Source: Caproiciproducens galactitolivorans (lineage in GTDB: Bacteria; Bacillota; Clostridia; Oscillospirales; Acutalibacteraceae). Taken from it: 64,000 bases of DNA. The stretch covers positions 124,001 to 188,000 of the forward strand of contig NZ_SRMQ01000003.1 in NCBI RefSeq assembly GCF_004768785.1. Reading direction: 5' to 3'. Below, piece by piece: positions 30,390-55,631 of this stretch. Numbering within the stretch: position 1 is the stretch's first letter; every line of letters begins with the position of its first letter. The position numbers and the translations under genes are program-made. The notes under the pieces were generated by a model. It worked only from the letters and a program-made list of their open reading frames with translations, made no database searches and was not told the origin of the DNA.

Positions 30390-32975
30390 TTATGCAATAT
30401 TCACGATACATTGGAGCGCCGCCCTTTGGGACGGGAGCGTACAATAAACGCCGCTACTTGTTTTTGTGGTTCCAATTGCTTTTACCGTAACAAAATAATT
30501 GTTTCCTCTTTTTACAATACTGGAGATGCTCAGGACATTTCCGTTCCCAACCGTAAAGACCGGGTTCAGATCCGGATTTTCCGCCGTGAATTTCATAACG
30601 TAGGATTTGCCGCTGTTCAGGGCAAACGGAGCGTTTGTGTCGGAGTAAATCCCGTTCAGGCGGCCTGTTGCGGTAAAGGAAGTGGTTTCACCGTTGGCGG
30701 CTGTGGTTGTAATAACAGCCGTACCGGGCCCCACATTCGTAATTTTGTAAAGGTAACCGCCGTCAACTTTTTTTTCAAAGATAACCGAAACGGCGGACGG
30801 ATTGGAGGAAACCGCGGTTGGCACCTGCGAGTTGTCTGTTTTCACAAGATAGAAATAGGTTTTATTCGCCTTGAACGAATACGGCTTGGTTGTATCGCTT
30901 TTCAGTACGCGGGGCGCCTTGGTTTCTTTTGGAGTCCCGGAAGCCGGGCCGGTTTCCCGGTAAGACGTGCCGCCGTGCTTTTTTGAATGATTACGTTTTG
31001 CTTTTTTATTGCTGTCTTTGTTCTTGTCCTTATCGTCCGGAGTTCTTTCTTCGTTTTCGTTGGTAATGAGAATGTTATTGCAATGGGTAAGGTTTTCCGC
31101 CGCCCATGGATCCTTGACGCCTTCAAAAATTACATTCTCAAAGCTGCTGTCTTCCAGATAGTCGATTTCTGGCGCTCTGGTATTTTTAAACCGGATGTTT
31201 TTAAAGTGAAGGTTGTAACAGGCCTTAAACTCGATTCCGGCGGCCTTAACATCCTCTTCGTCGTGGCTTCCATCAACGATAATCCCGTGGGTGGTTGTGC
31301 CGTTTACCGAACAGTTGTAAATATCGAAATTGCGGAATACGGGCCAGCCGATCTTTTGGATTTCGCCCGGATAATTGGTCGTGAAAATGAATGGGCAGCC
31401 GTCCATCTGATAGCCGATGGTATTTCCGTCCACCTTGCCATGCACCAGATTGGTCAGGTTCCGCATAGCAGTATCGCGGAAAACCACATGGTTTACGCCG
31501 CCGCCGGAGCCCGGCTTCGACTTGCAGCGCAGGCCGTCGCTGGTTCCCACCAGGATATTGTCTTCTGCCATAACATTGTCGATATCACGGGTTGTCCCGC
31601 TGCCGAACGCCACGCCGCCGTGGCCGCGCGCAATGTAGTTATTGAATATCCATGCGCTTCCGGAAAGCGGGTCGTTTCCGCTTCCCGCGTTCATGACGAT
31701 ATTATCGTCGCCCGAATTTACCACGTTATTCAGCGCGGTGAAGCCCTGGAAGCGCGCAACATTGATGCAGTCGCCGTTATTGATGTTGAAGGACTGCGTA
31801 ATCAGGCCGTTTACAACGTAATTGTCTACATAGGACATGCCCAGAACGGAGTTGCTGGGGTTTTTCAGCGTAAGGCCGTTGCCGACGTAAATATTGCTGA
31901 CCTGGCGGCCCTCCACCAGCTGGGACCTTGTTCCGTAAGCGGTTTTTGGGTCCATTCCAAGATCAATTGCCATTTTATACTGGTTCGCGGCTAAAATGCC
32001 GTTTTCCAGAATGGTATCGGGATTGCTGGTTTTGGACTGGATCATATCGCCTTTGCTGTACTCCACGTCGGGCGACGAGTCCTCCAGCTTCCAGCCCTGC
32101 CCGTCGATTACGCCTTTGCCGACAAGCCGGACATTCGCAACGCGCTTTTTGGTGCTGCTGCCGAAGCTGATGAACGGGTCGAATTTCTTCGGGAATTTTG
32201 CTTTTTTATCGCCTTTATCCATTTTCTCCTTTGCGTCCAGATAGTTCTGTCCGCCGCAGTCCATGGGATCGGTGGAAGAAATCAGCGTTCCGTCCACGCG
32301 GAAGGTCATATCTTCGTGAAGCTTCAGGGAACCGGAAAGGAATTTCCCCCCTTCGGGTAGCAATACCGTCCCGCCCTTGGGGCAGTCGTCAATCGCTTTC
32401 TGAATCGCGGCGGTGCAGACTGTTTCCCCGGTCTTGTCCGCGTTGTAGCCCGCGGAAGTTACGTCGATTACAGTTGGCTTTTCCAAGGTGGTCGCGTCCG
32501 TTGTGTACTTTCCGCCCAGATCCTTTTCCTTTCCGTCCTTCATGACCGCTTTGACCGTAAACGTATAATCCGTTTTCGGGCTTAACCCGGTCACCATGTA
32601 ATTGTGGAAGTTGATTCGGGTCGCGTCGGTGTTCTCTTTATCCTGATAGAACCGGTCGAAGAAAACCTGCGCGGGTGAATTTTTGTTTTTGCTCGCTCTT
32701 CCAATTTTTTTGCCGTTCGCATATACGGAATAATCCTGGATATCCGCGTAATTTTCCGGCTTGCTCCACACCAAAGTCAAGCTTTGATCGTCAACGGACA
32801 GCGGGATCACGCTGAGGCCGTCGCTTACACGCGATTCCATGATCGGGCCGGAATCCTCCCGCCTGCCGGAGTCCTTCGAGTCCTTTACTTCCGCGAAGGC
32901 GTCCGTTTGAACGGCGGGAGCCGCACTCAATGCCATGGCTGCTGCTAAAATGAGTGCCAAAACCTTTTTTCCCAT
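30390..32975 (-). CDS. Secreted GH28 polygalacturonase-like protein with C-terminal tandem module
   Basis: An 861-residue exported protein. It has a signal peptide (residues 1-29, ending AFAEV), a fibronectin-III-like domain (about 55-160) and a GH28 right-handed beta-helix (about 165-640). The helix carries the family residues: Asp in NGDCIN, GDDNI, GHGGV, and RCK in place of the usual RIK. A charged Lys/Asp-rich linker (about 645-690) leads to two C-terminal repeats (691-771 and 776-861) like those in the 2290-residue pectinase and the surface protein at 52884. The start at 32975 has GAGGAGG upstream. It would hydrolyse polygalacturonan outside the cell. It is a divergent paralogue of the N-terminal half of the neighbouring giant enzyme. 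Confidence 0.88.
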   Translation of the reverse strand: MGKKVLALILAAAMALSAAPAVQTDAFAEVKDSKDSGRREDSGPIMESRVSDGLSVIPLSVDDQSLTLVWSKPENYADIQDYSVYANGKKIGRASKNKNSPAQVFFDRFYQDKENTDATRINFHNYMVTGLSPKTDYTFTVKAVMKDGKEKDLGGKYTTDATTLEKPTVIDVTSAGYNADKTGETVCTAAIQKAIDDCPKGGTVLLPEGGKFLSGSLKLHEDMTFRVDGTLISSTDPMDCGGQNYLDAKEKMDKGDKKAKFPKKFDPFISFGSSTKKRVANVRLVGKGVIDGQGWKLEDSSPDVEYSKGDMIQSKTSNPDTILENGILAANQYKMAIDLGMDPKTAYGTRSQLVEGRQVSNIYVGNGLTLKNPSNSVLGMSYVDNYVVNGLITQSFNINNGDCINVARFQGFTALNNVVNSGDDNIVMNAGSGNDPLSGSAWIFNNYIARGHGGVAFGSGTTRDIDNVMAEDNILVGTSDGLRCKSKPGSGGGVNHVVFRDTAMRNLTNLVHGKVDGNTIGYQMDGCPFIFTTNYPGEIQKIGWPVFRNFDIYNCSVNGTTTHGIIVDGSHDEEDVKAAGIEFKACYNLHFKNIRFKNTRAPEIDYLEDSSFENVIFEGVKDPWAAENLTHCNNILITNENEERTPDDKDKNKDSNKKAKRNHSKKHGGTSYRETGPASGTPKETKAPRVLKSDTTKPYSFKANKTYFYLVKTDNSQVPTAVSSNPSAVSVIFEKKVDGGYLYKITNVGPGTAVITTTAANGETTSFTATGRLNGIYSDTNAPFALNSGKSYVMKFTAENPDLNPVFTVGNGNVLSISSIVKRGNNYFVTVKAIGTTKTSSGVYCTLPSQRAALQCIVNIA

Positions 32976-33438: not shown

Positions 33439-36400
33439 TTGATCTGGCAAAAATATGCGCCCAAAAAGCTGCTTTCTTTTCTACTGGCTTTAACAATCCT
33501 GTTTGGCATGATTGTTACCGGTGTTCCGTCGGAGGCTTCCGCAAAAGCGGCTACGGCGGAAAAAGGAATCCAGTTTCCGACGGTAACCCCGAAGGGGCTT
33601 GCGGTTTTACCATTGTCTTTGGAAGACAAAAAGCTTACGCTTGTGTGGAGCAAACCTGAAAATGATACGAATATCCAATACTATAATATCTATGAAAATA
33701 ATCGGTTGATCGGGCAGTCCGACCAAAACAAGGAAGCCCTGTCACAGAAATTTTTCGATAAATTTTACAGTACTCCCGCAAATTCCGATATGGTGAGAGT
33801 CTCCATGCACAACTATATTGTTACGGGGCTCCGCGCGGAAACGCAGTACCGTTTTGCGGTAAAAGCGGTGGATAAAAGCGGAAAGGAAATCCAGTTGGAT
33901 TCCAAATATGAAACGGAAGTAAAGACAAAGAAAACGCCGAAAATCATCAACATCAAGGACAGCGGTTATGGCGCGGTCGGCGATGGAACCAAGGTGAATA
34001 CGAAGGCGATTCAAAAAGCGATCGACGACTGCCCCGAAGGGGGAGTCGTGCGGATTCCGGAAGGAATCTTTAAAAGCGGTTCTCTTTACCTGAAAAGCGA
34101 TATGACGCTGGAAGTGGAGGGCACCCTTCTGGGTTCCGAAAATGCGGACGATTACCCTTACAGCAACCCGAAGGCTGTAAGCAAAGCCGCAGCGCTTATC
34201 AACAGTAAGGGCAAAACCGGCGAAAACATCCGCATTGTCGGCAAGGGAGTCATCGACGGAAACGGATGGAAGGAGGATTCCTCGGCAAACGACCCGGACC
34301 ATTTCTTCGTGTCGAAGGAAAGCAGCCAGAAAACAGTAGAGAAAAACGGCGTGCTTGCGGCCTCCCAATACCAAAAAGCCCTGCGCAACTACGGCTTTTC
34401 AGAAAGTGACGCCTACAGCACGCGCTCTAATCTGATCGAAATGAGGGGGATTAACCATCTTTACATCGGCGACGGGCTTACGCTGAAAAACCCTGCCCAG
34501 CATACGGAAATAAACGGCGGTTGTAACGACGTTGTTTTAAACAGCGTGAAGCTGGAAACTTTCAACTGCAATAACGGCGACGGTACCGGCCTTTCCGGCG
34601 GTAAGGGGCTGGTTGTTTTAAACAGCGTGCTAGACACCGGCGACGACAATATTGCGTTTAACGCGGGCCGCGGCAAGGCAGACACCCAAAAAGCGCCCAC
34701 CTCGGATATTTGGATCTTTAACAACTATTTCAAGCGCGGCCACGGCGCGGTGGTCTGCGGAAGCCATACTGCCGCATGGATAGAAAAAATCCTTGCCGAG
34801 GACAATGTCCTGAACGGAACGGGAACTGGGCTTCGCTGCAAAACCAGCAAGGGAACGGGCGGCGGCGCACGAAACATCGTGTTCCGGGACACCGCAATGA
34901 GGAACCTTACCGACAACGGCGGGCAGCCGTTCATCTTCACAAGCAACTATAACGGCGGTACCATCAGCGACCCGGCGGAAGAAGCACCAGCGTTCCAGAA
35001 TATCCTGGTGCAGAACTGCTCCGTTGACAGCGCAAAGAGCAGTGCAATTTACGTGGAAGGCCTGCCGGAAAAAAGCCATAATCAAATTCAATTTAGAAAT
35101 GTTATCTTTAAAAATACAAAACCGGCAAGCATCCGCTATTTTGAAAACGGCTTGTTTGAAAACGTTGTGTTCGATTCCCATATTAAGGATCCATGGGATA
35201 TTCAGAATGCAAACGGTTTGAAATTTACCGGAAAAACAACGATGACCGATGTTTCGAAAAACGCGGCACAGCCGCCTGTTTGGAAATCCGGCGCCGCCTT
35301 AAAGACAACCAACGTAAGCAATGACACCGTAAGCCTGTATTGGCAGGAAAGCGACGCTTCCGACAACACCGGCGTCGTTCAGTACATTGTTTACCAGAAC
35401 GGCGCACCCGTGGCTGTGCTTCCCGCAGGGCAGAACAACTACACCGCCGTGCGGCTGAAGCCTTCCACCAAATACAGATTTAAGGTAGAAGCGGCGGACG
35501 CGACCGGAGCGGCCTCTTCAAACGGTCCTTCGGCGGAGGTAACCACAACCGAACTGCCGGCCGAACGGTTTTACGCACCGCAGAACCTGCGCACAGCGCC
35601 CGCTTCCACCGGGAGTAATTCGACCGTACTGGTTTGGGAAAAGCCGAAAAATTATTCCAAGGTTACGGATTACGCAGTTTATTGCAACGGGCAGCTGATC
35701 GGCACGACCCGTTATACATACTTTAAAGCAAGCGGGCTCAAACCGGATACCAAGTATACGTTTACCGTAAAGGCCCGCAAAAAAGAGGGCTTTGAATCCC
35801 CTTCCAGCAACGCCGCCACTATCCATATGCTGCCGGAAGGCAAGGTATATAATGTTAAGGATTACGGCGCAAAAGGCGACGGAAAGGCAAAAGACACCCA
35901 AGCGATCCAAAAGGCAATCGACACCTGCCCGGCCGACGGAACCGTATACCTTCCGGCCGGCGTTTACTTGAGTGGCGCGCTGAACCTTCACAGCAACATG
36001 ACATTTTATGTGGACGCGGGTGCGCAGCTAAAGCCCAGCACGGACCTAAAGGACTATCCCTTCACCAGCGCAAGGCACGATATAGAGGATATTTACCGCC
36101 CGAACGACCCGTTCAAGGGTAACCCGGCGTTTGCAAGCCTGCTCAACGCGGGCACCATGGACAATAAGAAGGGTGCGACGACGCACAATATCCGGATCCT
36201 CGGCCCCGGCACCATCGGGGACGAAGACAACGGCCTGAAGCTGCGCGAGGAATACGAAAAGTACTGTGCGGAGCGGTACAAGAAGATTGCCGAGACCGGC
36301 GTCAGCCAGGAAGACATTCAAAAGAAATACCATATCGGCGGCGGCAGCCTGATCAGCCTGAAAAACTGCGGCAACGTCTATATGGACGGGCTCCATATCC

Positions 36401-39400
36401 GCAACGGCATGATGTGGACGATTGTGCCGGTTTACTGCGATGACATTACCGCTTACGGGCTGGATATCAACACAACGGTGCACAACGGCGACGGGTTTGA
36501 CCCGAATTCCGCAACAAACACCTACATTCTTGGCACGCAGTTTTCAACCGGCGACGACTGCAGCGCCATTAAATCCGGAAAGGACAAGGAAGGGCGCGAT
36601 ATCGGCCGCCCGTCCCATCACATTTACTACCGCGGTTGTGTGTTCCATGCCGGCCACGGCGGCCTTACCATCGGCAGCGAAATGTCGGGCGGCATCAGCG
36701 ACATTTTTGCAGAGGACTGCACGCTTGTCCCGGTCGACGTGCAAAACGGAGCGGTCAACCCCGGTGTCCGCGTGAAAGTCAGCCCTTCGCGCGGCGGGTA
36801 TATCCGCAACCTTCAGCTGAGGGATTCCGTCTGCAACAAAATATCGGTTATCACCAATTACGACAAGCAGAAGGGCGCTGCCCCGGGCGTACCGCTTCCG
36901 GATATTTCGAATTTCCAGTTTACTAACGCCAAAGCACCCAACAGCACCACAAACGGAAACAATATATTGGATTTAAACGGTTCCGATTTCGGAAAATCGT
37001 CCTCTTACCTGCGGAACCTGCAGTTTACCAACTGCGATTTCCACCACGCAAGCTTGAATACCTGCCAGAATATCTTCTTCAACAACTGCCGGTTTGCACA
37101 GCCTTCCACAAAAGCAAACTGCGTGAACGTGCAGGAAGGGGTCCAGAATACGGAGGATGACATAAAACCGAGGGATATCAGCGAAGACTTTGAGGGCTGT
37201 GAAGCGGGTGCGGCTCTACCCGAAAACTGGACCTTAAACAGCAATCCCGCCGGAAAAGCGGAAATCAAGACCGAAAATGGGAACCATTATCTTTCTGCAA
37301 CCGATACCGGTCCGGGCTATGTGACGGTAACCAACCGCTTCGCCCCCCAGTCCGGCGATGTAACGGTGAAATTCCGTTTCCGTTTCCCGTCCCTGTCGTC
37401 CGCCGCGGGCAACAGCATATTCGCGTTAAAGGACGCGGGCAACAAGGTGATCGCGCAATTCCCGTTGCAGGTTTCGGGAAATACCGCCAGCCTTGCAAAG
37501 GAAAAGCGAAATACCGACCGCGAAAAAGCCCCGGTCGTTCCGGAGGTGAAGGGCGACGAATGGTATACGCTTAAAATCGTCCTCCACACGGACACCAAGA
37601 AGACGGAGGTATACAATGGGGAGGAAAGGGTCGCCTTTTCGGATTCCGCCTATGAAGGGTATTACGACCCGGCGGCGGGGTTCCCCTCCGTTTTTGAATT
37701 CCACTCGCCGAACAACAACAAAGACACGGTTGTGATGGATGTGGACGATTTTTCACTCTCCTACGTGAAAACACTGCAAAAAATACCCGGGCTGCAAATT
37801 AAGGCCACGAGGAATTTTATTGCCGACAAAAACGGCAGACTCCCGCTTCAGGCGGAAGTTTCTCCGGACGACGCGGCGGATAAGTCCGTAAGCTGGTCGG
37901 TAAAAAATCCGGATTTCTCCGATACCAATATCGCTAAAATCGATCATAACGGCGTGGTGACTGCGGTTCAAAACGGTTCCTGCATCGCGGTGGCGACCTT
38001 GAATTGCGACAAGGCCATCCTCGGCGTTCTGCCGTTGACCATCACCGGGCAGGACAGCGAACAGGGGGTTGCAAAGGCCAATGTTTCAACCGCTGTTGGA
38101 AAGGCCCCGGTCCTGCCGGAGTATGTGTACCTGAATTACAGCGACGGGTCCGTCGTGCCTTACCGCGTGGCGTGGGATGCCGTTAGCCCTGCGCAGTACA
38201 ACCGGGCCGGAACCTTCCAGGTTTCGGGTACGGTCAAGGATACGGGGAGAAGGGTGCAGGCCGCCGTTACGGTGGAAACCCGCAAAATCCACCATGTGCC
38301 GCTCGTTTCCGTAAAAGCGGCGGTTGGAAAGCTGCCCCTGCCGGCCTCTGTTCCGATCGTGTACAACGACGGCACAAAAGCGAACCTTCCGGTTACATGG
38401 GATGCGGTCAACAGCCAACTGTACAGCCGCATCAACATTCCCGGCTTCTCCGTAACGGGGAAAATCAAGGGCACAAGTTGCACGGCAACCGCGCACGTGT
38501 CGGTTCTGCCCACGATTGTGCCGAACGTTTCCCCCATCGTCGTGGCACAAGACGGAACCGGGGATTTCCGGACAATCGGGGAAGCCATCCGCTCTATTCC
38601 GGCAAAGAACCCGAAACGACGCGTTGTGTTTATTAAAAACGGAATCTACGACGAAAAGCTCGTTGTGGACCGCCCCTACATCACTCTTGCGGGGGAAAGC
38701 GCGGACGGAACCCGCGTCACGTACGACGACAGTCCCATGAAGGAGGACGAAAACGGCAAGCCCCTTGGTACGTTTAATGATTTTACCTTACAAGTTACGG
38801 GGAGCGATTTTACTGCGCAGGATTTAACGGTGGAAAACGCTGCCGGATCCACGGTGGGGCAGTGCGTCGCGGTTGATTTAAACGCCGACCGAGCCCGCTT
38901 CACAAACTGCCGCCTGCTCGGCTATCAAGACACTCTGCTGACGCGCAACGGCACCAGTTCCTCAAGCGGCAACGTACCCGATCAGCAGACCTCGCACGTT
39001 TACCGCTCCTACTTTAACAAGTGCTTTATTTCCGGATCGGTGGACTTTATCTTCGGCCCTGGAAAGGCCGTATTCGATGACTGCGAAATTCATTCGCGCT
39101 TAGGCGGCTATATCACCGCAGCTTCCACCCCGGCGGAACAGGATTACGGTTATGTTTTCCTGAACTGTAAGCTGACCGGGGAAGCCTTGCTGAAAAAGAA
39201 CCCGTCCGTAAAGCTTGGCCGTCCGTGGCGGCCTTACTCCGCCGTGTCTTACATCAACTGCGCCATGGACCTCCACATCAGCTCGTTCGGCTGGGACAAC
39301 TGGGGCAAAAACGAAAACGAAGCGACCGCCCGCTACTCCGAATACAATTCGGTGGATTTAAACGGCAAACCGCTGGATCTGAGCAAGCGTGCGCCCTGGG

Positions 39401-40311
39401 CGAAGCTGCTTACACAGCAGGAAGCCCAGACTTACACAATCGCAGGAATTCTTTCCGGAGACGACCGTTGGGATCCGACAAAGATTTCGGTTCCCAGCAG
39501 CACCTCCGGTAGCGGTGATTTCAGCAAGCTGCAAAGATTGGTCGGCGAATGTGAAAAGATTCAAAAGGGAAATTACACCGAGTCGAGCTGGAACAGCTTC
39601 CTCAGCGCACTAGATTTCGCAAAATCCGTTCTGAATAATAAAGAAGAGGAGCAAAGCGAGATCGACGCGGCGGCGGAAGCCCTGCTCTCCACGAAAAACG
39701 GATTAACCGCACAGGGCGGCGGCTCGCACCGCTCCGGCCACAAGCCGGGCAATACCGCAAACAAGCCGGATCCTTCCTCGCCCGCCCCGGCAAAAAAATT
39801 AAAAAGCGACACGACCGCTCCGTACCGGTTCCGCGGAAACAGCACGTATTTCTATAAAATTACAACGTCGGACAGCGTTCCCCCGAAAGGCGTTTCCACC
39901 AATCCGTCGGCGGTAACCGTCGAGTTTGTGAAGAAGCTTCCCGATGGGTATCTGTACCGGATTGTCCAGGTCGGCGACGGCAGCGCAACCATTGTTACGA
40001 CGGCCGCGAACGGGGATACCACCTCTTTTACCGTGCATTCGGACGACTGCGGCGGGCTGATTTCCGACACGCCTTACCGGTACCGGATAAAGGAGGACGC
40101 TTCCTATCAGTTTAAATTCACGTTGACTGCGGTGGACAAAGTCCCGGTATTCACCACCGGCGACAGCAAAGTCGTGCAAACAGTTTCCGTATTCAAACAG
40201 GGAAACGCCTATTACGTCAAGGTAAAGGCGGCCGGTAAGGGAAGCACCGGGATTTACGTAACGGTACCGGGACAAACGCCGCTGTGCAAGTGTGTCCTTA
40301 CCGTTCCTTAA
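33439..40311 (+). CDS. Giant secreted multidomain pectinase: two GH28 domains plus pectin methylesterase
   Basis: A 2290-residue exported protein. The TTG start at 33439 follows GAGAGGAGAG and begins a signal peptide (to about residue 37). Domains in order: an FnIII-like domain (55-160); GH28 domain 1 (170-604; NGDG 378, GDD 401, GHG 434, RCK 466); two FnIII domains (614-705, 711-798); GH28 domain 2 of exo-polygalacturonosidase type (801-1232; NGDGFD 1016, GDD 1038, GHGG 1073, RVK 1111); a concanavalin-like jelly-roll (1245-1445); a Big_2 domain (1448-1537); two Big_4-like repeats (1543-1614, 1618-1691); a CE8 pectinesterase (1700-2014; Gln 1829 in GYQDTLL, Asp 1869 in SVDFIFG, Arg 1928 in LGRPWR); a FIVAR-like helical domain (2025-2090); and two C-terminal repeats (2119-2290). 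All catalytic residues are present. It would demethylate and depolymerise pectin in one chain. Confidence 0.93.
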   Translation: MIWQKYAPKKLLSFLLALTILFGMIVTGVPSEASAKAATAEKGIQFPTVTPKGLAVLPLSLEDKKLTLVWSKPENDTNIQYYNIYENNRLIGQSDQNKEALSQKFFDKFYSTPANSDMVRVSMHNYIVTGLRAETQYRFAVKAVDKSGKEIQLDSKYETEVKTKKTPKIINIKDSGYGAVGDGTKVNTKAIQKAIDDCPEGGVVRIPEGIFKSGSLYLKSDMTLEVEGTLLGSENADDYPYSNPKAVSKAAALINSKGKTGENIRIVGKGVIDGNGWKEDSSANDPDHFFVSKESSQKTVEKNGVLAASQYQKALRNYGFSESDAYSTRSNLIEMRGINHLYIGDGLTLKNPAQHTEINGGCNDVVLNSVKLETFNCNNGDGTGLSGGKGLVVLNSVLDTGDDNIAFNAGRGKADTQKAPTSDIWIFNNYFKRGHGAVVCGSHTAAWIEKILAEDNVLNGTGTGLRCKTSKGTGGGARNIVFRDTAMRNLTDNGGQPFIFTSNYNGGTISDPAEEAPAFQNILVQNCSVDSAKSSAIYVEGLPEKSHNQIQFRNVIFKNTKPASIRYFENGLFENVVFDSHIKDPWDIQNANGLKFTGKTTMTDVSKNAAQPPVWKSGAALKTTNVSNDTVSLYWQESDASDNTGVVQYIVYQNGAPVAVLPAGQNNYTAVRLKPSTKYRFKVEAADATGAASSNGPSAEVTTTELPAERFYAPQNLRTAPASTGSNSTVLVWEKPKNYSKVTDYAVYCNGQLIGTTRYTYFKASGLKPDTKYTFTVKARKKEGFESPSSNAATIHMLPEGKVYNVKDYGAKGDGKAKDTQAIQKAIDTCPADGTVYLPAGVYLSGALNLHSNMTFYVDAGAQLKPSTDLKDYPFTSARHDIEDIYRPNDPFKGNPAFASLLNAGTMDNKKGATTHNIRILGPGTIGDEDNGLKLREEYEKYCAERYKKIAETGVSQEDIQKKYHIGGGSLISLKNCGNVYMDGLHIRNGMMWTIVPVYCDDITAYGLDINTTVHNGDGFDPNSATNTYILGTQFSTGDDCSAIKSGKDKEGRDIGRPSHHIYYRGCVFHAGHGGLTIGSEMSGGISDIFAEDCTLVPVDVQNGAVNPGVRVKVSPSRGGYIRNLQLRDSVCNKISVITNYDKQKGAAPGVPLPDISNFQFTNAKAPNSTTNGNNILDLNGSDFGKSSSYLRNLQFTNCDFHHASLNTCQNIFFNNCRFAQPSTKANCVNVQEGVQNTEDDIKPRDISEDFEGCEAGAALPENWTLNSNPAGKAEIKTENGNHYLSATDTGPGYVTVTNRFAPQSGDVTVKFRFRFPSLSSAAGNSIFALKDAGNKVIAQFPLQVSGNTASLAKEKRNTDREKAPVVPEVKGDEWYTLKIVLHTDTKKTEVYNGEERVAFSDSAYEGYYDPAAGFPSVFEFHSPNNNKDTVVMDVDDFSLSYVKTLQKIPGLQIKATRNFIADKNGRLPLQAEVSPDDAADKSVSWSVKNPDFSDTNIAKIDHNGVVTAVQNGSCIAVATLNCDKAILGVLPLTITGQDSEQGVAKANVSTAVGKAPVLPEYVYLNYSDGSVVPYRVAWDAVSPAQYNRAGTFQVSGTVKDTGRRVQAAVTVETRKIHHVPLVSVKAAVGKLPLPASVPIVYNDGTKANLPVTWDAVNSQLYSRINIPGFSVTGKIKGTSCTATAHVSVLPTIVPNVSPIVVAQDGTGDFRTIGEAIRSIPAKNPKRRVVFIKNGIYDEKLVVDRPYITLAGESADGTRVTYDDSPMKEDENGKPLGTFNDFTLQVTGSDFTAQDLTVENAAGSTVGQCVAVDLNADRARFTNCRLLGYQDTLLTRNGTSSSSGNVPDQQTSHVYRSYFNKCFISGSVDFIFGPGKAVFDDCEIHSRLGGYITAASTPAEQDYGYVFLNCKLTGEALLKKNPSVKLGRPWRPYSAVSYINCAMDLHISSFGWDNWGKNENEATARYSEYNSVDLNGKPLDLSKRAPWAKLLTQQEAQTYTIAGILSGDDRWDPTKISVPSSTSGSGDFSKLQRLVGECEKIQKGNYTESSWNSFLSALDFAKSVLNNKEEEQSEIDAAAEALLSTKNGLTAQGGGSHRSGHKPGNTANKPDPSSPAPAKKLKSDTTAPYRFRGNSTYFYKITTSDSVPPKGVSTNPSAVTVEFVKKLPDGYLYRIVQVGDGSATIVTTAANGDTTSFTVHSDDCGGLISDTPYRYRIKEDASYQFKFTLTAVDKVPVFTTGDSKVVQTVSVFKQGNAYYVKVKAAGKGSTGIYVTVPGQTPLCKCVLTVP

Positions 40312-52883: not shown

Positions 52884-55631
52884 ATGAAAAAAATCACAGG
52901 AAAAGTTGTTTCGCTTGTGCTTGCGTTAGCGCTTGTCGTTTCCAGCTTTTCAGTCAGCTTCGCTCAAGCGTCCACCAAGACGATGTCCGGAGTGATCACC
53001 GACACGAACGAAGATGCGATTTATCTCGTTAACGGCGGTGCGGTAACCACAGCGAACCTCACAGATTTTCTGCTTAGCAGAGGCAGCAATTTTAAATTTG
53101 AGACAGTCGATCACCATACTGTTACAGACGAGAAAATCAACGCAATTTCTCATATATCGGGTGATAAGCTTGTTTCATTAAGTGTGAACAGTTCTACGGA
53201 TGTAGCTACGCTCAAACTGAAGAGTAGCTCCGCTTCCGGTAAGGAAGTTATTTCTGTTCTTTACGAAGGCAGCTATACCGACGAAGACGGCAATGACTAT
53301 ACGGTTAAGGCGAGACGCGACCTGACGGTATATGTTTATGACAAGGATCAGATCGTATACGGCGAGTATGATCCCAATTATGCCACAAAGGATTCCGGTA
53401 CAGGCTTCGATGATTTCGAAACATTTGCGCAGACCGCCAACAGCACGAAGACCCTTGGTATCTACAGGGTAGTGCCGGCCGCCACTTCTGCTTTAGCTAC
53501 ATACCTTCCGGCAGACTTAACGACGGCAACCTCCGGAATCACGGACAAGAATGCTTACAGCTTCAGCATTACCGGCACGGATGTTCATGTTTCGGTAGTC
53601 AACGCAACTTCTACATTCACACAGTTCCCGGTAGCTACGATCGGTAAAAGTTTTGAGATTGACAAGTATACAAAGGACGCTTCCACCGGCAATGTAACTG
53701 TTACCGTTAAGAAGCTTGTTGCAAGTGGTTCAACCTACAAAGCTTCTACTGATTCTGACGATAAGTATACTCTGAAAACAAAGATTGAAAAGAAATGCGA
53801 CGTTGCAACCGTTTTACCGGGCAGTACTACATTCTCCATCTCCAAGACAGACGGCAAGAGTGTTCTGACAGGCGACGCAACTTCTGCTTCTGCAGTTGTA
53901 ACAGATTGCGAAGTCGTATTCCCGGCCGGCACCACCAGCGTTTCCGTCAATGAAAACACCAATGTAAAGAAGATTTCCGGCACAGTCGGCACTCTTACAA
54001 TTGGCGATGCGAACGTTGGCTCCATTGATATTGACAATGGTACCGTAAACGTAACAGACGGTAAAGTCGGCAACATTACAACCGACGGTGCACCCGTTGC
54101 CGCAGGCGACGATTCTGTTCTGGTCAGTGGCGGTAAGGTTGGCAACATCGATGTAACGGATGTGGATAATGACACAGACAGCAACGTAACGGTTAACGCC
54201 GGTACAGTCGGAACCATCGATGCGGACGGCACCGTAACGGTTGCTGCAACAGATGCGGACACTCCTGTTGTTACAGGCAAGATTACTGCCCCGACGATTT
54301 CCCTGTTCTCCGATGAAGCGAAAGTTACGGTTGCTGGCGTTAAGGCAAGTGCCGACGGTACCATCACCTTCCTGGGCAATGATACGAATGTCAGCGCAAT
54401 TGACTTTGATTACCGCGAAACTACATTGAACCTCGGCGACGAAGACAATGCCTTCACAGGCAAAATCCCGGCTCCGACCAATGCGGAAAACGGCAAAATT
54501 GATACAACAAACGAAGACACCAATGCAACCGTCAGCGGCACGGTAAAGATCGATACCATTTCTTTGGATTCCGATACCAATCTTGCTTTTGACGGCGCTG
54601 TAACAGCTGAGACAATTGAAGGCGACGGTGCAATGAAGATTGCTGCCGGCAAGCTGTATGTTTCCAGCAGCGCTTCCGGCGTTACCCTGAAGCTTTCCGA
54701 CAAAACGCTCGTTCCCGGCACAGTAGTATTCAAGGCGGATGCCGACGCGGTTGACGTTGACAGCTTCGATACCTACGGCTTTACTCTTACAAAGAGCGCA
54801 GGCTCTGCGGTTGATACCTTTAAGATTGATGCCCTTTCCTTCGCGGGTATCGCAATCAACAAGGATGCCTCCAGCATTGCGAAGGGCTATTCCGAAACAT
54901 TCACAGCTTCCGCTTATCCGGGCGGCACATCCCTCCCGAGCGGCTGCACAATCCAGTGGACGCTTGACGGCGGCAGCAGCGATGTCTTTACATTAACTTC
55001 TTCCGGCAATACCGCAACGGTTAAGGTAAACAGCATTGATTCTACCTTTGCATCCGAGAACAAAACCACATTGACTGCAACCCTTTATGATGAAGATGGG
55101 TATGAGCTCGACGATTACGCGCCGGCGAAGTGCGAAATCACAGCGATTGAGGTTCCGGAGGCTGTTTCCGACACAAATGCGGACATGTCCATTTCTAAGG
55201 GCGCAAGCTATCAGATGAAAGTCACTTCCGCAACGGTTCCGGTTGTTACAGCCGGCACAGGCGGCGTCGTTTCCATCGCGCTTGTTTCCAAAAATGGCAA
55301 TGACTACTTCTACAAGTTTACTGCAAATGGCTCCGTAGGTGCTGCTACCGGCATTTACCTCAACGGAAAGAAGATCTTTGTTGCTACTGTAAAAGCGCCT
55401 GCTTTCACAAGTGATACAACAATGAACCTGACCGTTAAGGGCGCTTATCAGTTCCAAATTACGTCTGCGGAAGCTCCGACTGTCTGTGTTGGATCCGCTG
55501 CCTTTAAGCTGAATCTCGTTTCCAAAAACGGCAACAATTATTTCTACAAGATTACATCCGATAGCGCAAAAGGCACACAGGCTGGAATTTATGTAAACGG
55601 CACCAGGATTTTCGTTGCTACTGTTGGTTAA
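52884..55631 (+). CDS. Abundant secreted surface (S-layer-like) protein with C-terminal tandem module
   Basis: A 915-residue exported protein with a clear signal peptide (residues 1-30, SFAQA cleavage region). The N-terminal third is beta-rich and unassigned. The middle (about 320-590) is a low-complexity array of Gly/Asp/Val/Thr turns such as GTVNVTDGKVGNI and VGTIDADGTV, resembling a solenoid or beta-helix. A Big-like domain (about 650-755) follows, then two C-terminal repeats (762-837, 842-915) shared with both pectinases. No SLH, LPXTG, GW or dockerin motif is present. The consensus promoter, long leader and near-perfect AAGGAGG site imply very high expression. I infer an S-layer or matrix protein; no family is recognised for the body. 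Confidence 0.75.
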   Translation: MKKITGKVVSLVLALALVVSSFSVSFAQASTKTMSGVITDTNEDAIYLVNGGAVTTANLTDFLLSRGSNFKFETVDHHTVTDEKINAISHISGDKLVSLSVNSSTDVATLKLKSSSASGKEVISVLYEGSYTDEDGNDYTVKARRDLTVYVYDKDQIVYGEYDPNYATKDSGTGFDDFETFAQTANSTKTLGIYRVVPAATSALATYLPADLTTATSGITDKNAYSFSITGTDVHVSVVNATSTFTQFPVATIGKSFEIDKYTKDASTGNVTVTVKKLVASGSTYKASTDSDDKYTLKTKIEKKCDVATVLPGSTTFSISKTDGKSVLTGDATSASAVVTDCEVVFPAGTTSVSVNENTNVKKISGTVGTLTIGDANVGSIDIDNGTVNVTDGKVGNITTDGAPVAAGDDSVLVSGGKVGNIDVTDVDNDTDSNVTVNAGTVGTIDADGTVTVAATDADTPVVTGKITAPTISLFSDEAKVTVAGVKASADGTITFLGNDTNVSAIDFDYRETTLNLGDEDNAFTGKIPAPTNAENGKIDTTNEDTNATVSGTVKIDTISLDSDTNLAFDGAVTAETIEGDGAMKIAAGKLYVSSSASGVTLKLSDKTLVPGTVVFKADADAVDVDSFDTYGFTLTKSAGSAVDTFKIDALSFAGIAINKDASSIAKGYSETFTASAYPGGTSLPSGCTIQWTLDGGSSDVFTLTSSGNTATVKVNSIDSTFASENKTTLTATLYDEDGYELDDYAPAKCEITAIEVPEAVSDTNADMSISKGASYQMKVTSATVPVVTAGTGGVVSIALVSKNGNDYFYKFTANGSVGAATGIYLNGKKIFVATVKAPAFTSDTTMNLTVKGAYQFQITSAEAPTVCVGSAAFKLNLVSKNGNNYFYKITSDSAKGTQAGIYVNGTRIFVATVG

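Follow-up and report, generated by a model that had tools for sequence, protein, structure and literature searches.

An Ig-like C-terminal module of pectinases, lysozymes and phage-type endolysins as a predicted cell-wall-binding domain

Why should two pectinases and a surface-type protein share the same C-terminal end? The question is raised by a window of 64,000 nucleotides from the genome of Caproiciproducens galactitolivorans (contig NZ_SRMQ01000003.1, positions 124,001 to 188,000; "the window" is this whole stretch), in which three proteins end in a pair of related repeats. Our analysis suggests that each repeat is a single-domain, immunoglobulin (Ig)-like module which probably binds the cell wall non-covalently, and which host cells would use to display proteins and phages to lyse their hosts. 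Since phage enzymes that cut the cell wall end in this module, it is most likely a grip on the bacterial wall.

An earlier, sequence-only reading of this DNA had claimed that three proteins end in two repeats each, and we find this to be correct: all three open reading frames (ORFs) exist, and a profile hidden Markov model (HMM) finds six repeats in them, at limits that differ from those first given by a few residues at most. To avoid circularity, the profile was drawn only from copies outside the window's own genome (140 modules from other genomes and viral contigs). It matches exactly 3 of the 490 ORFs of at least 60 residues in the six frames of the window, with domain E-values of 2.2e-13 to 6.7e-24 for the six repeats, and 0 of 9800 shuffled ORFs. 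A BLAST search with the surface-type protein starting at 52884 already finds, by itself, the last repeat of each pectinase (E 3.5e-9 and 2.5e-5). The repeats start with Ser-Asp-Thr (at 30899 and 30644 on the minus strand, at 39805 and 40063, and at 55167 and 55410), and the second repeat of each pair reaches the stop codon. The proteins and their modules, which fall into the two types discussed below, are as follows.

30390..32975, minus strand: secreted polygalacturonase (fn3 + GH28) of 861 amino acids (aa), module pair at its end; Pfam GH28 E 3.6e-15, fn3 E 2.7e-9; hydrophobic N-terminus
30663..30899, minus strand: type I module of the 30390-32975 protein; domain E 2.2e-13; type I branch of the tree
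30393..30644, minus strand: type II module of the same protein, up to the stop codon; domain E 6.7e-24; type from the tree
33439..40311, plus strand: multi-enzyme pectinase of 2290 aa, TTG start, module pair at its end; Pfam GH28 in two stretches, fn3, Big_4, pectinesterase, FIVAR
39805..40041, plus strand: type I module of the 33439-40311 protein (end approximate); domain E 6.4e-14; first beta-sandwich of the model
40063..40308, plus strand: type II module of the same protein, up to the stop codon; domain E 9.3e-23; matches the SbsC Ig-like domain
52884..55631, plus strand: surface-type protein of 915 aa, hydrophobic N-terminus; no Pfam match over cut-off; two module-tailed paralogues in its own genome
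55167..55394, plus strand: first type II module of the 52884 protein; domain E 1.8e-19; single-domain AlphaFold2 model with pLDDT (predicted local distance difference test) 95.3
55410..55628, plus strand: second type II module of the 52884 protein, up to the stop codon; domain E 2.4e-16

Copies of the module are also found on lytic enzymes of phage type. GH25 lysozymes ending in two modules are encoded on the IMG/VR contigs L157/L158 and L152-L155, the latter four sharing one enzyme. PHROGs labels the enzymes of L153, L157 and L158 endolysins, and those of L153 and L158 have tail genes in their vicinity. An Amidase_2 endolysin of Anaeromassilibacillus An250 carries a single module; its gene follows a tail-type gene, with two ORFs without assigned function in between, and precedes a haemolysin-type gene. 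Genome G233 encodes a one-module GH25 endolysin, and after it come two small genes that match holins, one at E 0.0014, though better matched by a family of unknown function, and the other at 5.3e-6. The modules of the An250 and G233 endolysins are sisters (support 100/99) despite their different catalytic domains, which would be expected if binding parts were swapped as whole units. The N-termini of seven module endolysins, that of L210 being taken from an internal Met, have a best 15-residue hydrophobic mean of 1.15 or less, compared with 2.5-2.7 in two of the window proteins. Altogether, 13 viral contigs, one of them partial, encode a module-bearing lytic enzyme, and these represent fewer independent enzymes. 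Some viral contigs may be of prophage or bacterial origin. Three records (L150, L151 and L156) hold non-lysin module proteins, among them the L150 alpha-amylase, which has three or more full copies, and are possibly bacterial DNA sorted as viral. As a separate observation, a reverse transcriptase gene (phrog_1423) lies upstream of the endolysin gene in L158 (5546-7079) and L157 (324-1379), with a tail fibre assembly gene between the two in L158, an arrangement that looks like a diversity-generating retroelement.

What stands in the same place in related enzymes? Among 19 viral relatives of the amidase endolysin, five carry the module (three share 88-100% identity with the query, the other two are alike), seven have a SPOR-like tail, Pfam-checked on L211 and L217, three have short tails, three are distant and one was unreadable. 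The GH25 enzyme of L153 has 13 viral relatives, and the ends of 10 were read: three have the module, four were not assigned, and three end in known wall-binding domains (CW_7 with LysM, two LysM, and PG_binding_1 with SH3_3). As relatives of the endolysins have SPOR, LysM, CW_7 or PG_binding domains, the module stands in the place of wall-binding domains; it occupies the binding-domain position of endolysins and lysozymes alike.

This position in endolysins, the C-terminal place of the module on two host lysozymes and its occurrence on enzymes with unlike substrates together make a wall-binding domain the simplest account. The host wall hydrolases are two Big_2-GH25 lysozymes of the window's own genome, and the carriers of unlike activity include pectinases, GH25 enzymes, alpha-amylase, GH3 and GH2. 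An N-terminal signal peptide would export the carrier protein, which would then fold, and the C-terminal module or modules, often placed after a flexible or helical spacer (a Ser/Gly/Pro linker or FIVAR repeats), would stick to a wall component common to these bacteria, which could be peptidoglycan or a wall polysaccharide. The module would thereby keep the pectinases, the lysozymes and the 52884-type protein on the cell surface, and phages would use it as the C-terminal binding domain of their endolysins. We infer both the wall binding, a function predicted from the position of the module, and surface display as its purpose in the pectinases.

Several observations weigh against this account. 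The endolysin cases overlap, since L152-L155 hold one enzyme, the enzymes of L208-L210 are 88-100% identical to the An250 query and those of L222/L223 look alike. A bacterial origin is also probable for some of the IMG/VR contigs, such as L150 with its alpha-amylase gene. The GH25 relatives with LysM or PG_binding domains are only 26-37% identical in the catalytic part. In G233, none of the ten proteins scanned was recognised as the product of a structural phage gene, which leaves the prophage only putative, and one of the two holin matches is weak. Within the own genome, one of the nine carriers has a 12-residue tail after its last copy, and in a frame of 748 residues the copies make up most of the chain. 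Sortases are present in 9/9 of the genomes surveyed for anchors, so that another anchoring route exists. Finally, the folds nearest to the module (SbsC, phage tail, filamin and Big_2 Ig domains) are not known as folds of wall binders.

We compared the module with known families. Searches of Pfam and NCBIfam placed no family over its cut-off on the module, either in the three window proteins or in 22 module sequences, a PilX total-score case apart. No anchoring or carbohydrate-binding family already known was reached, in line with the earlier description of the module as unassigned. There was no match to SLH (PF00395) up to E 1, nor any to CWB2 (PF04122), in the three window proteins or the 22 module sequences, and no Pfam match to dockerin (PF00404) up to E 1 in the three window proteins; by eye, these stop at the last strand of the module, with no LPXTG motif, membrane helix or charged tail. 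The LysM, SPOR, CW_7, PG_binding_1, SH3_3 and Big_2 (PF02368) profiles match none of the 22 module sequences up to E 1, the Big_2 match of the 2290-aa protein (residues 1466-1514) lying outside the module. Choline_bind_1 (PF01473) matches 1 of the 22 sequences below cut-off (E 0.13), and a sub-cut-off ChW (PF07538) match (E 0.27) falls on residues 1946-1962 of the 2290-aa protein, not in the module. Three further candidates were rejected: the PilX C-terminal family (PF13681; 2 of the 22 sequences, best E 0.0041), and LtfC (E 0.027) and WZC_N (E 0.026), which touch modules of the 2290-aa and 915-aa proteins below cut-off. A multi-copy protein of 747 aa does exceed the PilX cut-off in total score (31.1 against 27 bits, E 3.3e-7), but no single stretch of it passes, the best spanning 26 residues. 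PHROGs gave weak matches only, likewise set aside, the best being to a structural phage protein that contains an Ig domain (E 0.0064, in 2 of 22 sequences); the L152 phage tandem had no match in the phage collection, and solved structures searched by sequence gave nothing below E 0.16, with titin as best. By sequence comparison, then, the family is unnamed in the libraries searched and has no convincing known relative among their families.

Structure prediction, which the sequence-only reading had proposed as a check, gives an Ig-like beta-sandwich. AlphaFold2 models the 39805-40308 pair as two all-beta domains (mean pLDDT 88.9, predicted template modelling score (pTM) 0.58), and the 55167-55394 copy as a seven-stranded domain (mean pLDDT 95.3, pTM 0.79). 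The type II half of the pair matches the Ig-like domain of the surface-layer (S-layer) protein SbsC with Z 11.3 (root-mean-square deviation (rmsd) 2.0, 82 residues aligned, 20% identity) and the type I half matches the Big_2 structure 7r3t_B (Big_2-CBM56) with Z 10.2 (rmsd 2.0, 73 aligned), several further matches to the pair falling within 1 Z unit of these values. For the single domain at 55167-55394, an Ig domain of phage SU10 (Z 9.5, rmsd 1.8, 69 aligned) and SbsC (Z 9.1, rmsd 2.1, 73 aligned) are tied, and a search by Foldseek alone found no match with E 0.001 or lower. The module is thus modelled as a seven-stranded Ig-like beta-sandwich of about 75-85 residues near the SbsC, phage-tail and Big_2 Ig domains, in a comparison that covers only the folds listed by the structure searches and in which several unrelated Ig-like folds score near the best. 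A shared fold by itself shows no function.

Because the nearest folds belong to S-layer, phage and spacer Ig domains, some probability, though a low one, attaches to the module being a self-association or S-layer lattice domain, such that the enzymes would dock on a layer of the 52884 type and the endolysins would hold that same layer. The SbsC match fits this, as does the fact that the 52884 protein and its two own-genome paralogues are all module-tailed, and Ig arrays form the S-layer of Deinococcus (PMC10120038, in the part of the paper available). Yet the only module that a single profile finds in G233 (99% complete; distant copies were possibly missed) is on the endolysin itself, and in the loci kept from four Anaeromassilibacillus-type genomes 110 of 112 distinct ORFs with the module have a single copy. 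The G233 case also bears on the earlier proposal that the repeats attach proteins to the cell surface or to each other: attachment to the surface is favoured by the extreme C-terminal position and by the place of the module in endolysins, while mutual attachment becomes less likely, as that endolysin carries the only module found in its genome.

We consider it still less probable that the module is an inert structural cap or spacer of secreted enzymes without a ligand. Big_2 is a common spacer fold and type I copies match a Big_2 structure (7r3t_B); against this stand the extreme C-terminal position of the module and the presence of SPOR, LysM, CW_7 and PG_binding domains in the same place in related endolysins.

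To return to the modules themselves, a tree of 83 copies separates 10 rows from the other 73 (support 97/90), a branch that consists of eight type I copies, labelled by motif, and two unlabelled divergent copies; the tree rests on 83 short columns, leaves many forks open and lets some long branches meet. The type I copies include the first repeats of both pectinases and of one own-genome lysozyme. The second pectinase repeats join the corresponding repeats of GH25 lysozymes, at a fork that is open, and each of the two 52884 repeats falls in its own group, made up of copies from 52884-like proteins of the genus; by this grouping, the pectinase tails resemble those of lysozymes more than the tail of the 52884 surface protein. 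A fixed, conserved tandem unit is rejected by the same tree. The earlier description of one tandem common to all three proteins therefore holds for the wider family only, because the pectinase repeats differ in paralogous type (I followed by II) while the 52884 protein has two of type II. The module is a family of single Ig-like domains, present in one to about eight copies per protein.

The window's own genome has 22 copies in nine proteins: the three of the window, two 915-aa paralogues, the 748-residue frame, the two Big_2-GH25 lysozymes and an 1155-aa protein with DUF4430 and Big_4. In eight of the nine, the last copy lies 0-1 residues from the stop. The 748-residue frame (L013:5739-7982) encodes the 747-aa protein, which has a hydrophobic N-terminus and seven to eight copies, three of them nearly identical; in other genomes of the genus, the frames listed include some of 749-786 residues with at least two copies. 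A three-module paralogue of the 52884 protein adjoins a gene for an RsgI-like protein (L014:4969-9148), which we take to resemble an RsgI-type anti-sigma factor, a hint of expression under the control of sensing. In genome G978, from another genus, a module-tailed frame of 994 residues (L196) is, by eye, like the 52884 protein, and this type of surface protein may be older than the genus.

The setting of the pectinases raises a third alternative. Their neighbours in the window include UxaC, an altronate/galactarate dehydratase, a mannitol-type dehydrogenase, a LacI regulator, GH43 and an ABC permease, which suggests a galacturonate-use locus, and with two of the three window carriers being pectinases in that locus, the module could be a substrate-binding carbohydrate module, for pectin for instance. 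Since the carriers are so varied, with the same module ending amylase, GH2, GH3, lysozyme and amidase proteins and phage-type endolysins, we hold this to be very improbable. Equally hard to credit is a C-terminal sorting signal for a dedicated secretion or attachment machine, analogous to the type IX C-terminal domain of Bacteroidota: most of the proteins do end at the last beta-strand and one genome has about 95 reading frames with the module, but the copies can also form tandem arrays, and some sit on phage-type endolysins whose N-terminus is not signal-like.

How widely is the predicted wall-binding module distributed? Ten of the 60 genomes near the window, a set that contains its own, have the module; all belong to the window's genus, where they make up 10 of 11 genomes. 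In samples that overlap and that each include the own genome, it was found in 32/398 genomes and 9/135 genera of the family, in 5/295 genomes of the order (with one weak match outside the family), and in 3/391 genomes of the class and 2/398 of the phylum, with all matches in these last two within the family. Two of the nine positive genera are supported solely by the weak matches of G861 and G913 (E about 1e-6), the latter within a protein that by eye is rich in SH3. In the samples searched so far, the module is nearly confined to a single bacterial family and the phages of that family. From a collection of named genomes, the best 80 of 217 relatives were kept (73 loci), and all of these come from four records (two of Anaeromassilibacillus, Clostridia bacterium UC5.1-1E11 and Clostridium sp. 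D33t1_170424_F3), so weaker relatives elsewhere lie outside this view. In Anaeromassilibacillus senegalensis, 101 matches fall in about 95 reading frames, counting rows that share a frame, and across the four Anaeromassilibacillus-type genomes the module ends 0-2 residues before the stop in 109 of the 111 ORFs that have one.

Among the carriers in these genomes are 24 large proteins with FIVAR (24), F5/8 type C (7), GH2 (up to 6), alpha-amylase (2) and GH3 (2) domains. When aligned, the 24 proteins (L077-L126) share a C-terminal part of about 450 residues consisting, in order, of a beta-rich region, several FIVAR repeats, a Ser/Gly linker, a short segment rich in Ala/Val and the module. Modules of L077-L149 also have two recurrent cysteines, one in a YCFK motif (108 of 115 copies) and another near the last strand (102 of 115), which could form a disulphide; they are not kept as a pair in the window copies.

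More tentatively, and with somewhat less than even confidence, we propose that one bacterial family has an anchoring code of its own, in which an Ig-like module and a shared wall ligand, used in about 95 frames of A. senegalensis and copied by phages in at least two kinds of endolysin, would do the work done elsewhere by SLH, LPXTG or dockerin. Should the wall-binding reading prove right, it would identify the probable anchor of many enzymes that these anaerobes secrete, allow their surface proteins to be predicted from sequence and offer binding domains and display tags fitted to the host family. In the titles and abstract openings that made up the literature searched, we found no description of the module; for Limousia, the available part of one report describes a dockerin-based system (PMC12997984).

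Finally, how does the module compare with known ways of holding proteins on the wall? The wall-attachment domains in the accessible part of Table 1 of a 2018 review (PMC5817068) comprise LPXTG, LysM, WXL, SH3 types, SPOR, CW-7, PGB1/2, CWB1/2, SLH and ChW; no entry there is described as Ig-like, and an Ig-like sandwich would join this list. As with SLH and CWB2, by which many different secreted proteins of one cell are held non-covalently on the wall (PMC5817068, same part), the module would serve many carriers at once, but the modules have no SLH or CWB2 match. SLH occurs in 4/9 genomes, with one reading frame each, and CWB2 in 0/9, so both are too rare to be the main anchors in these nine genomes. 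Like LysM, SPOR, CW_7, PG_binding_1 and SH3_3 (PF01476, PF05036, PF08230, PF01471 and PF08239), the module is C-terminal behind GH25 or Amidase_2; unlike them, it is a predicted Ig-like beta-sandwich and matches none of their profiles up to E 1. With the Big_2 and SbsC Ig-like domains, which are lattice or spacer parts, it shares the predicted fold, but the 22 module sequences have no Big_2 match up to E 1. Wall binding would be a function of a known kind, for which both the sequence family and the Ig-like sandwich appear to be new.

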